Assembly: GCA_951812725.1 (NCBI GenBank)
Contig: OX638330.1
Location: 930,001 to 994,000 of the forward strand
Direction of reading: 5' to 3'
DNA length: 64,000 bases
Source of the DNA: an uncultured Caldilineaceae bacterium
GTDB taxonomy: Bacteria; Chloroflexota; Anaerolineae; Caldilineales; Caldilineaceae
The position numbers and the translations under genes are program-made. Positions 22,972 through 31,686 of this stretch are shown piece after piece; position 1 is the stretch's first letter, and the number at the start of each line of letters is the position of its first letter. Under the pieces are notes generated by a model. The model was given only the letters and a program-made list of their open reading frames with translations. It had not been told where the DNA came from and ran no database searches.

Positions 22972-23328
22972 ATGCTCAGTCAATATTTCTTCATTCTCGT
23001 TATGTCCGGTCTGGCGGTCGTGTTGCCTGTTGCCGCCATCGTCATGGGCCACTTCCTTGGCCCCCGGCGGCCCGATGAGATCAAGAACGACATCTATGAA
23101 AGCGGTGTCGAAACAATTGGCGAGACGTGGGTGCAATTTCGCGCGCAATACTATCTGATTGGCCTGGTTTTTGTCGTGTTTGATGTCGAAGCGCTGTTTC
23201 TCTTTCCAATCGCCGTCGCATACCAGCAGCTGGAAATGTTCGCCGTGTTTGCAACAATCTTCTTCGTCCTGCTGCTTGTGATCGGGCTGATGTACGACTG
23301 GCGCAAGGGCGCCCTGGAGTGGCAGTAG
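22972..23328 (+). CDS. nuoA2: NADH-quinone oxidoreductase subunit A (operon 2)
   Basis: This is a second NuoA of 118 residues with three helices. It shows KNDIYESGVETIGETW, FRAQYYLIGLVFVVFDVEALFLFP and YDWRKGALEW. The conserved acidic FDVE motif in helix 2 is intact. It is clearly divergent from the operon 1 copy (FDIE, YESGIIPFAD), so this is not a recent duplicate. ATG 22972 gives the family-typical length. The in-frame ATG at 22813 would add 53 unrelated residues. Shine-Dalgarno complementarity is weak. It starts the membrane-only nuo operon. Confidence 0.9.
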   Translation: MLSQYFFILVMSGLAVVLPVAAIVMGHFLGPRRPDEIKNDIYESGVETIGETWVQFRAQYYLIGLVFVVFDVEALFLFPIAVAYQQLEMFAVFATIFFVLLLVIGLMYDWRKGALEWQ

Positions 23329-23413
23329 ACCTGGCATCAACGCAGCACATGTCGAATTGCAGCGCGGTCCCATTTGACCGCAAATCCACAGCCCTCTGTT
23401 TGGAGGCACTGTA

Positions 23414-24655
23414 ATGCAGATTACCCAATGGAGCGATGTGCTTTCTGGCTGGCTTATGGGAATGGGATTGCCAGGCTGGGCGGCCATCGCCATAGTATAC
23501 GGCGTCGGCTCCTTCATTCTAATCAACTACGGCATGTTGTCTGTGCTACTGTTGATCTGGATCACTCGCAAAGCAATCAGCCGCATGCAGGACCGCATCG
23601 GCCCCAATCGAGTCGGCAAATACGGACTACTCCAGACCGTCGCTGACGCGGCCAAGCTGCTCTCCAAAGAGGACATCACCCCCTACCAAGCCGACAAGAT
23701 CGCGTACAATCTTTCGCCGGTTCTGGCTGTTTCCGGCGTACTGATGTTGCTGGCAGTGGTCCCCTTTGCGCCTGGACTGAGCGGCGTGGACCTGAATATC
23801 GCCGCCCTCTATATTGTTGCGCTCGGCTCGATTGGCATCATGGCCGCGTTGATGGCCGGATGGGGCAGCAACAACAAGTATGCCCTGCTGGCCGGCTTTC
23901 GCGTGGTGGCGCAACTGCTGAGCTATGAAATTCCTCTGGTGTTGGCAATCCTGACCGTCGTTCTTCTCACCGGTTCGATGCGCTTCGGCAATATCGTCGA
24001 AATCCAGTCGCTGCACGTGGCTGGCTTTAACCTCGGCCTGGGCTGGCTAGGCATCGTTATGCCGGGTGCGCTGATCGTATTTTTCATCAGTTCGCTGGCT
24101 GAGGCCGAACTTACGCCTTTCGACCTTCTGGAAGCGGAATCAGAACTAATCGCCGGTTTCCATATCGAGTATTCGGGCATGAAGTTCGCCATGTTCTTCC
24201 TGGCCCAGTTCCTGAACGCCTGGATTCTGGCTGCCGTTGGTGTCACGCTTTTCCTCGGCGGCTGGCAGGGCCCCGGCGTTGGCTTGCCGGTCATCGGTCC
24301 GCTGCTGGGTCTCGGATACTTCATGATAAAAGTGTACGGCATATACGTCCTGCAGCAGTGGATCCGCGGAACCTTCCCCCGCATCCGTATCGATCAAATG
24401 ATGGCCTTTGCCTGGAAGGTCCTTGTCCCACTGATGATCGGCCTGATTCTTATCCAGGCAATTATCCAGAAGCTGCCGACACCAGTCGCCATTCAATATG
24501 TGCTGATCTTTATCGCTAATATCGGTGTGATGGCCGTTGTTGCCTACGTCCTGCAGAAGTATTTCCGTGAAGAACAGATCCGAACAAAGCGATCATTCGA
24601 ACCAAAGTCCTTAATTGGAGCGATGCAGGTTTCTGACGAAGGCACCATGTACTAG
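23414..24655 (+). CDS. nuoH2: NADH-quinone oxidoreductase subunit H (operon 2)
   Basis: This is a 413-residue NuoH, nearly 90 residues longer than the operon 1 copy because of extra sequence at both ends. The quinone-channel segment QDRIGPNRVGKYGLLQTVADA is conserved. So is the acidic loop EAELTPFDLLEAESELIAGFHIEYSG, which normally touches NuoB, NuoD and NuoI. Retention of these surfaces suggests the protein still docks on a peripheral arm, although no such genes follow. GGAGG lies just ahead of the ATG. The gene starts 85 bases after nuoA2. Confidence 0.93.
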   Translation: MQITQWSDVLSGWLMGMGLPGWAAIAIVYGVGSFILINYGMLSVLLLIWITRKAISRMQDRIGPNRVGKYGLLQTVADAAKLLSKEDITPYQADKIAYNLSPVLAVSGVLMLLAVVPFAPGLSGVDLNIAALYIVALGSIGIMAALMAGWGSNNKYALLAGFRVVAQLLSYEIPLVLAILTVVLLTGSMRFGNIVEIQSLHVAGFNLGLGWLGIVMPGALIVFFISSLAEAELTPFDLLEAESELIAGFHIEYSGMKFAMFFLAQFLNAWILAAVGVTLFLGGWQGPGVGLPVIGPLLGLGYFMIKVYGIYVLQQWIRGTFPRIRIDQMMAFAWKVLVPLMIGLILIQAIIQKLPTPVAIQYVLIFIANIGVMAVVAYVLQKYFREEQIRTKRSFEPKSLIGAMQVSDEGTMY

Positions 24656-30077: not shown

Positions 30078-30180
30078 TCACAGTTAATCATCGTATTGAC
30101 CAAGTGCCGGCTGCCACCGCAAACTCGAACTACCGGCAACCGGCATCTGCCAACAGGTGCTTCTGAATGGAGAACAATAC

Positions 30181-31686
30181 GTGGGCGACATAGGATATCT
30201 CGCACCCGAAATCATATTACTCATCGGCGGCCTGTTCATCTTCTGCCTGGACTTGGCTTATGACCCCGGCGTAGGCAATAAGTCGGGTCTGAGTTACATG
30301 GCGCTGTCGGCGCTCTTTCTGACCGCAGCCCTCGTAGCCGCTGTGCTGCAACTGAACATCTCCGATCCGGAAGCAGGGCCGAAGGTGGCCTTTTCGATGA
30401 TGACCATCGACAACTTCGGCAGCTTCATCAAGGTCACCATCTTCTCCGGCATGATCCTGACCACCATTGCCGGCGGGCGCTACATGAACCGCCGCTCCGG
30501 CAACCAGGGCGAGTTCTGGACCTTCTTCCTCATGGTCAGCCTGGCGATGAGCATTGCCGCCAGCGCCAACAACCTGGTCCTGGTCTACCTTGCAATTGAA
30601 TTCCTGTCGATAACCAGCTATATGCTGGCGGGCTTCCTGCGCGAGAATCGCCGCAGCAACGAGGCCGGGCTGAAGTACTTCCTCTACGGGTCGATCGCAT
30701 CGGCCGTCATGTTGTATGGCATCAGTCTTCTCTATGGCGCCACCGGATCACTCTACCTTCACGACATCGCCGCTGCTTTTTCCGAGATTATTGGCGAGTC
30801 CACTGAGATTAGCGGCTTGGCCTTTGCCGGCCTGCCGGCGATGCTCCTGATTCTGGCGGGACTGGGATTCAAGGCAAGCCTGGCACCCTTCTACCAGTGG
30901 GCGCCGGACACCTACGACGGCTCGCCTACCCCAGTAGCAACCTATCTGTCAACGGCCTCCAAGGCCGCGGCGTTTGCCGTGCTGGCCCGATTCTTCATCG
31001 TGGCCATGGCCTCATTTCAGGTCAACTGGGTGCCCGTTCTGGCCGCCTTTAGCATTATCACCATGACGATGGGCAACCTTGCAGCGCTGCGGCAAAATAG
31101 CGTCAAACGCATGCTGGCCTACAGCTCCGTGGCCCAGGCCGGCTATATTCTGATGGGTTTGGTGGCTGTTACGTCGAATTCGCCGAGCGCGATGGACGGT
31201 CTCAACGGCGTGCTGCTCTATCTTTTCGCCTATCTGTTCACCAACGTCGGCGCCTTCCTCGTGGTCATGGCGCTGGAAGAGACGGTCAACAGCACGCATA
31301 TCAGCGCCTACCGAGGTCTGATAAAGCGGGCGCCCTGGCTGGCGGTTATGTTTACCGTCTTCCTGCTCAGCCTGACCGGCATCCCGCTAACAGGCGGCTT
31401 CTTCGGCAAATTCTACGTCTTCGGCGCCGCCATACAGCGCCAGTACTTCTGGCTGGCAGGCATTGGCATGATCAATGCAGGGCTGGCCGCCTTCTACTAT
31501 CTGCGCGTGGTCCGGGAAATGTTCTTCACCCAGGAAGGTGAATGCGAGGTTCTGGACGTACCAATGGCCCTGCAGACCAGCCTCCTGATCTGCACCGTCG
31601 CCACCGTCTGGATCGGCGTCTATCCCAGCGCCGTGCTCGACTGGGTCAGCAACGCCTCCGTCCAACTGCTGTCGGTTGTCCCATAG
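30181..31686 (+). CDS. nuoN2: NADH-quinone oxidoreductase subunit N (operon 2)
   Basis: This is a NuoN of about 501 residues. Motifs include YLAIEFLSITSYMLAGF, LAPFYQWAPDTYDGSPTPVATYLS and VKRMLAYSSVAQAGYIL. I prefer GTG 30181 because GGAGAA lies 6-7 bases upstream. An in-frame GTG at 30157 would add eight residues and overlaps that ribosome site. It ends operon 2 and is convergent with an aldo/keto reductase gene only 4 bases away, so there is no room for a conventional terminator between them. Confidence 0.94.
   Translation: MGDIGYLAPEIILLIGGLFIFCLDLAYDPGVGNKSGLSYMALSALFLTAALVAAVLQLNISDPEAGPKVAFSMMTIDNFGSFIKVTIFSGMILTTIAGGRYMNRRSGNQGEFWTFFLMVSLAMSIAASANNLVLVYLAIEFLSITSYMLAGFLRENRRSNEAGLKYFLYGSIASAVMLYGISLLYGATGSLYLHDIAAAFSEIIGESTEISGLAFAGLPAMLLILAGLGFKASLAPFYQWAPDTYDGSPTPVATYLSTASKAAAFAVLARFFIVAMASFQVNWVPVLAAFSIITMTMGNLAALRQNSVKRMLAYSSVAQAGYILMGLVAVTSNSPSAMDGLNGVLLYLFAYLFTNVGAFLVVMALEETVNSTHISAYRGLIKRAPWLAVMFTVFLLSLTGIPLTGGFFGKFYVFGAAIQRQYFWLAGIGMINAGLAAFYYLRVVREMFFTQEGECEVLDVPMALQTSLLICTVATVWIGVYPSAVLDWVSNASVQLLSVVP

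Follow-up and report, generated by a model that had tools for sequence, protein, structure and literature searches.

A nuo operon for the membrane arm in an uncultured Caldilineaceae bacterium as the probable half of an 11-subunit complex I encoded at two loci

What does an operon encode that specifies the complete membrane arm of complex I and nothing of its peripheral arm, and where is its partner? This question is raised by a stretch of 64,000 nucleotides (the window) from an uncultured Caldilineaceae bacterium, which corresponds to G000:C1:930001-994000; G and L numbers denote the genomes and the fetched stretches used here, and G000 is a single-contig genome of 5,951,259 bases. The window carries two nuo operons on opposite strands, operon 1 beginning about 0.7 kb from operon 2. 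Operon 2 (22972-31686) consists of nuo genes in the order A-H-J-K-(small protein)-L-M-N, all in one direction. We assign a probability of about 0.82 to the reading that operon 2 and three unlinked genes, B2-CD2-I2, each contribute one half to a single 11-subunit complex I (set 2), which has no E, F and G subunits belonging to it. What the data show directly is the presence of the seven membrane genes in the window, that of B, CD and I genes elsewhere on its contig, and the fact that both groups occur together across the class.

The membrane operon and the unlinked B2-CD2-I2 genes

All seven membrane subunits of operon 2 are encoded by intact reading frames with matches to the respective families (Table 1), which bears out the gene order given in the original prediction; NuoL2, NuoM2 and NuoN2 each pass the cut-off of their own NCBIfam subfamily. 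Neither reading frames nor profile matches within the operon indicated a gene for any of the subunits B to G or for subunit I. The protein encoded between nuoK2 and nuoL2 had been described as a tetratricopeptide repeat (TPR) protein. A weak resemblance to TPR proteins does exist, but the best TPR family match (E-value 0.004) lies below the curated cut-off. Its C-terminal half likely forms two membrane helices as judged by hydropathy, and homologues are present in 43 of the 80 named loci of relatives. NuoH2 retains the acidic loop expected from the prediction, both in its translation and in the alignment with a solved Nad1 chain. In solved complexes, this loop faces subunits B, D and I, and a docking partner had been postulated on account of it.

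Such a partner was found, unlinked to operon 2: a search of the genome for further nuoB, nuoCD and nuoI genes, as had been suggested, located B2, CD2 and I2 at G000:C1:5466598-5471248. The NuoB family (PF01058) matches two places in G000, one in operon 1 and one at 5470742-5471071 on the minus strand, and the NuoD family (PF00346) matches operon 1 and a second place, the latter in two pieces (5468599-5469345). B2 (265 amino acids, aa), CD2 (592 aa) and I2 (288 aa) are intact frames in one direction, and no E, F or G gene lies beside them in the fetched stretch L008. B2 is about 4.5 Mb away from operon 2 when measured along the contig; should the contig be circular, the opposite route would be about 1.43 Mb. 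The earlier statement that there is no peripheral arm is thus true of operon 2 only. In the genome, intact frames exist for all of A, B, C, D, H, I, J, K, L, M and N, with C and D fused and B, CD and I at the second locus. A membrane arm without any partner was thereby rejected. The kinship of NuoL, NuoM and NuoN with subunits of Mrp antiporters might still suggest that the membrane operon needs no partner and forms an Mrp-like antiporter or an orphan ion channel. This is extremely improbable, as operon 2 includes a full NuoH and a NuoA, neither of which is known from Mrp antiporters, and a partner module exists.

The sequences of the three partner proteins agree with a function in complex I. 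Inspection by eye of alignments with solved chains revealed that the cysteines of B2 are kept, as are a histidine and a tyrosine of CD2, and two 4Fe-4S motifs are readable in the translation of I2. We take the cysteines of B and I to be cluster ligands and the two CD2 positions to be quinone ligands. The best solved matches of CD2 are C/D subunits of complex I, and CD2 contains two cysteines in all (positions 65 and 376) and therefore no [NiFe] ligand set. Consequently, a hydrogenase-type input was rejected, and the proposal of a different electron-input module as docking partner was not supported, B2 and CD2 being of the complex I type.

Ratios of non-synonymous to synonymous substitution rates (dN/dS) were calculated against the relatives G012 and G004. 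They amounted to 0.013-0.068 for A2, H2, J2, K2, L2, M2 and N2 and to 0.038-0.090 for B2, CD2 and I2, which indicates purifying selection on both halves of set 2. The TPR-like gene gave laxer values than the nuo genes of set 2 (0.27 and 0.18). Synonymous divergence (dS) from G012 was lower for B2, CD2 and I2 (0.33-0.41) than for operon 2 and four operon 1 genes (0.63-1.22), a pattern absent in the comparison with G004; recombination at the B2-CD2-I2 locus (L008:6598-11248 compared with L147) possibly explains it.

Table 1. Features of the two nuo operons in the window.
Feature	Position	Strand	Remarks
nuoA2	22972-23328	+	membrane arm; PF00507, E 2e-33; 38% identical to nuoA1
nuoH2	23414-24655	+	PF00146, E 9e-103; acidic loop kept; aligned to solved Nad1 chain
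nuoJ2	24754-25284	+	PF00499, E 5e-35
nuoK2	25366-25680	+	PF00420, E 1e-28
small accessory protein, 117 residues	25742-26095	+	weakly TPR-like N-terminal half, hydrophobic C-terminal half
nuoL2, 740 aa	26164-28386	+	PF00361, E 6e-75, PF00662; TIGR01974 over cut-off
nuoM2, single copy	28479-30077	+	PF00361, E 3e-73; TIGR01972 over cut-off
nuoN2	30157-31686	+	PF00361, E 3e-71; TIGR01770 over cut-off
operon 1	6475-22262	-	12 genes (A, B, CD, EF, G, H, I, J, K, L, M, N) for a 14-subunit complex I; context, outside set 2
Uma2-family putative endonuclease gene	16426-17118	-	PF05685, E 1e-29; between nuoEF and nuoG

Operon 1 differs from set 2 by its fused E/F gene and its G gene and shares with it the fusion of C and D. 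The subunits of sets 1 and 2 are 28-54% identical, depending on the subunit, over the best aligned stretch. A relative of the Uma2-like gene, which interrupts operon 1 between EF and G, occupies the same position in many, though not all, Caldilineaceae loci.

To look for a gene of electron input, the surroundings of B2-CD2-I2 were compared in eight stretches (L008, L143, L147, L148 and L155-L158). Recurring neighbours are a metallo-beta-lactamase-like gene, a gene for a 125-aa protein without a Pfam match, a flavin amine oxidoreductase-like gene (PF01593) and a gene for a NUBPL-type iron-sulfur carrier; neither an E/F/G set nor a ferredoxin gene was found among the neighbours in these stretches. 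NUBPL, also named Ind1, is an assembly factor of complex I. In G000, the NUBPL-type gene (PF10609, E 8e-87; L008:2525-3352) lies downstream of I2 in the same direction, an arrangement found in six of 13 B-CD-I stretches (G000, G004, G010, G012, G046 and G059). Genes for a flavin adenine dinucleotide (FAD)-linked oxidase and an Fe-S/CCG-domain protein, resembling glycolate or lactate oxidase, are located near B2-CD2-I2 in L157 (G114; 1-2702) and L158 (G059; 2233-4955), and this pair is a possible electron source. Upstream of B2 in G000 lies a YhcG/DUF1016-type nuclease gene in two separate frames (L008:11615-13166).

Distribution of the two halves among relatives

Searches for NuoH2, NuoB2 and NuoI2 covered G000 together with 60 relatives. 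Strong matches of all three were obtained in each of the 17 genomes of the genus (G000-G016). H2 and B2 lie there on different contigs, except in the single-contig genomes G000, G004 and G012, where more than 1 Mb of contig separates them (1.3 Mb in G004 and 1.2 Mb in G012). The membrane-only order is likewise widespread, as the survey of relatives proposed in the prediction confirmed: among 80 named loci of relatives, A is directly followed by H in 68, and all seven membrane genes are present with no B, CD or I on that strand in 53. NuoD stands directly upstream of H in 11 loci, and one locus starts at H, at a contig end. A deletion or an assembly error that took B-G and I out of a normal operon had been named as what might undo the prediction. 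It is hardly credible now, as the direct succession of A and H recurs in many assemblies and H2 and B2 lie far apart in three single-contig genomes; nothing was found in its favour. Conversely, B-CD-I runs without H were also met in stretches of G004, G010, G012, G022, G045, G046, G047, G049, G054, G059 and G114. In G051 (L154, 6331-8793), B2 and CD2 share one open frame of 820 residues, followed by I, which is likely a NuoB-C-D fusion; several other genomes of the class have CD frames of 831-861 residues, which hint at the same. In L149 (G047), B2-CD2-I2 directly precedes an operon-1 type run of B, EF and G.

The survey was extended to 200 genomes of the class, for which a completeness of at least 90% was requested, at an E-value cut-off of 1e-60. 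NuoH matches were obtained in 174 and NuoCD matches in 173 genomes, numbers to which operon 1 proteins can contribute as they can also pass this cut-off. Placements rest on the 150 places listed for each gene, of the 174 and 173 genomes with matches. All 150 listed NuoH places have E-values of 4.3e-82 or better, beyond the operon-1 type matches obtained in the search of 61 genomes. In these 150 genomes with a set-2-like NuoH, the partner lies elsewhere in 131, CD stands beside H in 13, one case is unclear and no partner was found in five. For 128 of the 150, CD is listed as well: 115 pairs are on different contigs and 13 on one contig, none of them adjacent, with 5.4 kb to 4.5 Mb between the gene starts. 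Follow-up searches addressed the other 22 genomes: the partner is on another contig in G216, as is B2 in G218 and G131. The unclear case is G065, where both genes lie at contig ends. CD directly beside H was found in G037, G042, G044, G048, G061, G063, G075, G077, G093, G094, G102, G104 and G116. The nearest separate pair is that of G114, whose halves are arranged head to head, B2 and A2 being 2457 bases apart. Adjacency of B, CD and I to the membrane genes in close relatives, which would have told against the prediction, was therefore not seen within the genus, while in the class the halves come as near as about 2.5 kb in G114 and CD adjoins H in the 13 genomes named.

Two draft genomes, G045 (100% complete, of the kind with two NuoM) and G054 (92% complete, of the kind with one NuoM), are of particular weight. 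In each, a single match was obtained for NuoH (at E 1e-3) and for CD (at 1e-60), and a single NuoB reaches complex I strength; all of these belong to set 2, which is distributed over two operons on different contigs. The split set thus appears to be the sole complex I in both, which argues strongly that the halves work together. Two consecutive NuoM hits as in G045 occur in 12 of the 80 named loci (L084, L088, L091-L093, L096, L098-L101, L103 and L118), where A is again followed by H.

Two further stretches, L107 and L112, contain the genes of both halves in one 11-gene run, A-B-C-D-H-I-J-K-L-M-N; the roughly 20 kb fetched around it gave no hit for E, F or G. On both contigs set 2 yields a better score than set 1 for all 11 genes. 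The preference is mixed in most of the more distant joined operons (L104, L106, L109 and L113-L117), and H favours set 2 in each. Trees were calculated by a quick method from a selection of the loci fetched (48 NuoH and 35 NuoD rows), with SH-like approximate likelihood ratio test (SH-aLRT) support and no bootstrap. In the NuoD tree, 13 split rows form one group (97) beside L107 and L112 (99), and the 12 operon-1 rows stand apart (100). The NuoH tree also separates operon 1 from the rest (100).

These relationships bear on the earlier suggestion that operon 2 supplies a second membrane arm for the peripheral arm of operon 1, giving two alternative pumps with one input. The divergent arrangement of the two operons, seen in the window and in many Caldilineaceae loci, would permit co-regulation, and the docking loop of NuoH2 is kept. 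Nevertheless, we consider this very unlikely, because set 2 is accompanied throughout the class by a cognate B2-CD2-I2, even in genomes in which operon 1 was not found, and because the genes of L107 and L112 side with set 2 throughout.

Electron input and points against the proposed enzyme

If the two halves form one enzyme, the membrane arm would assemble with B2-CD2-I2 and not with operon 1. I2 would accept electrons, likely from reduced ferredoxin, and its two 4Fe-4S clusters would hand them on to the cluster of B2. A quinone, likely menaquinone, would be reduced at the junction of B2, CD2 and H2, and L2, M2 and N2 would pump ions, likely protons. The cell would then possess two pumps, an NADH enzyme of 14 subunits from operon 1 and one of 11 subunits that uses another donor. 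The sole NuoF match of the G000 genome is situated in operon 1, and the set-2 enzyme therefore has no NADH module of its own. POR_N-type genes (PF01855) are found at three places in G000 and suggest 2-oxoacid oxidoreductases of the ferredoxin type. They make ferredoxin a plausible donor, as has been proposed for the 11-subunit enzyme of Desulfitobacterium (PMC11238625).

Several observations weigh against the proposed enzyme. Five of the 150 listed genomes (G203, G207, G068, G123 and G171), all of them drafts, gave no set-2 partner, for which loss is a possible cause. Most of the 131 separate pairs lie on different contigs, and contig breaks may hide some neighbours. Both runs of G045 begin at contig ends and could be neighbours, though its B-CD-I run would still lack H. 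The NuoH tree places G047 outside the group and L107 and L112 inside the split rows, which would allow for more than one origin of the split. In G000 itself, a transposase element resembling an insertion sequence lies between CD2 and I2 (L008:7465-8595), flanked by a five-base repeat; the gap between the two genes is 1131 bases compared with 114 in the near relative G010, which has no insert. This element could disturb the expression of I2 or cut it off from its promoter. With respect to the electron donor, the three POR_N-type genes make ferredoxin plausible, but an E-F-G-like run lies on a different contig of G045, and genes resembling F and G are present in G054, so that an NADH module in trans is possible there.

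The last point leads to the explanation that the set-2 halves pair with each other but borrow EF1 and G1, resulting in a functional 14-subunit NADH enzyme encoded at three loci. It would account for the single NuoF of G000 and for the lack of E, F and G beside B2-CD2-I2, and G045, with the split set only, fits it by its E-F-G-like run. However, the F protein of G045 carries an extra Fer4 domain and its G-like part is in two frames, and one F of G054 is fused to a part of a pyridine nucleotide-disulphide oxidoreductase; either may belong to a soluble enzyme. Moreover, G044, which unites B, CD, H and I in a single run and showed neither a further NuoH nor a further NuoB, gave no NuoF match in a 95% complete draft. 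We thus regard borrowing as unlikely, if less so than docking on operon 1, and favour the 11-subunit enzyme without E, F and G.

How two diverged complexes I could coexist in one cell is a matter on which we can offer a tentative suggestion. Specific interfaces between the halves might keep the enzymes apart, with the TPR-like protein as an accessory subunit or an assembly factor specific to this set, while the clusters of B2-CD2-I2 would be loaded by the NUBPL-type carrier. The halves of one enzyme would then find each other from distant operons, although the membrane operon adjoins the operon of the other enzyme.

Comparison with known systems

None of the papers searched joined Caldilineaceae, complex I and nuo, and the main text of a paper on sponge Chloroflexi (PMC6306507) does not contain the terms complex I and NADH dehydrogenase. 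In the parts of the retrieved papers that contain the names nuoBCDI and nuoAHJKLMN, these are used in other senses, PMC7117926 apart. The membrane-bound hydrogenase differs from set 2 by the [NiFe] ligand cysteines of its large subunit, which CD2 lacks, and the Mrp antiporter by the absence of what is present here, NuoH2 and the quinone module B2-CD2-I2. The premise of the original prediction that known partial complexes usually lack E, F and G only still holds, as set 2 is such a complex split over two loci. The passages of PMC11238625 on Desulfitobacterium hafniense describe an 11-subunit complex of A-D and H-N without E, F and G, with ferredoxin as the proposed donor; it shares this composition with set 2 but is encoded in one operon, not at two loci with a fused CD. 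The cyanobacterial and chloroplast form belongs to the same comparison of 11-subunit complexes. A second complex I encoded in two operons is described in the same source for Sulfurospirillum multivorans, the division there (nuoGHIJKLMN and nuoABCDEF) not being one between membrane arm and quinone module. Chloroflexus aurantiacus and C. aggregans possess, according to the relevant parts of PMC3150298 and PMC8004040, another nuo set in addition to a full one of 14 genes, with A, B, C, D and H-N in one cluster with two NuoM, as opposed to two loci and one NuoM here.

The closest counterpart is the '2M' complex I of Chloroflexi such as Anaerolinea thermophila and its kin, for which the passage in PMC7117926, citing Chadwick et al. 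(2018), reports nuoBCDI separate from the membrane operon and a fused nuoCD. Both features recur here. The 2M complexes have two NuoM (L-M1-M2-N), whereas operon 2 has one NuoM2 and a TPR-like gene between K and L; the set of the window is their single-NuoM counterpart. Related loci include both kinds, the 12 named loci with two consecutive NuoM hits being of the published 2M type. As a separated nuoBCDI is already in print for the 2M complexes, set 2 is ordinary in kind. What is added here is its breadth in the class, genomes with the split set as the apparently only complex I, and an explanation of the membrane-only operon. The composition of an enzyme should accordingly not be read from a single operon, and the class lends itself, as a natural example, to studying how a cell with two complexes I prevents their halves from mixing. 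The apparent oddity of a membrane operon without a peripheral arm would thus disappear, the operon being a partial view of a known type of 11-subunit complex I encoded in two places.

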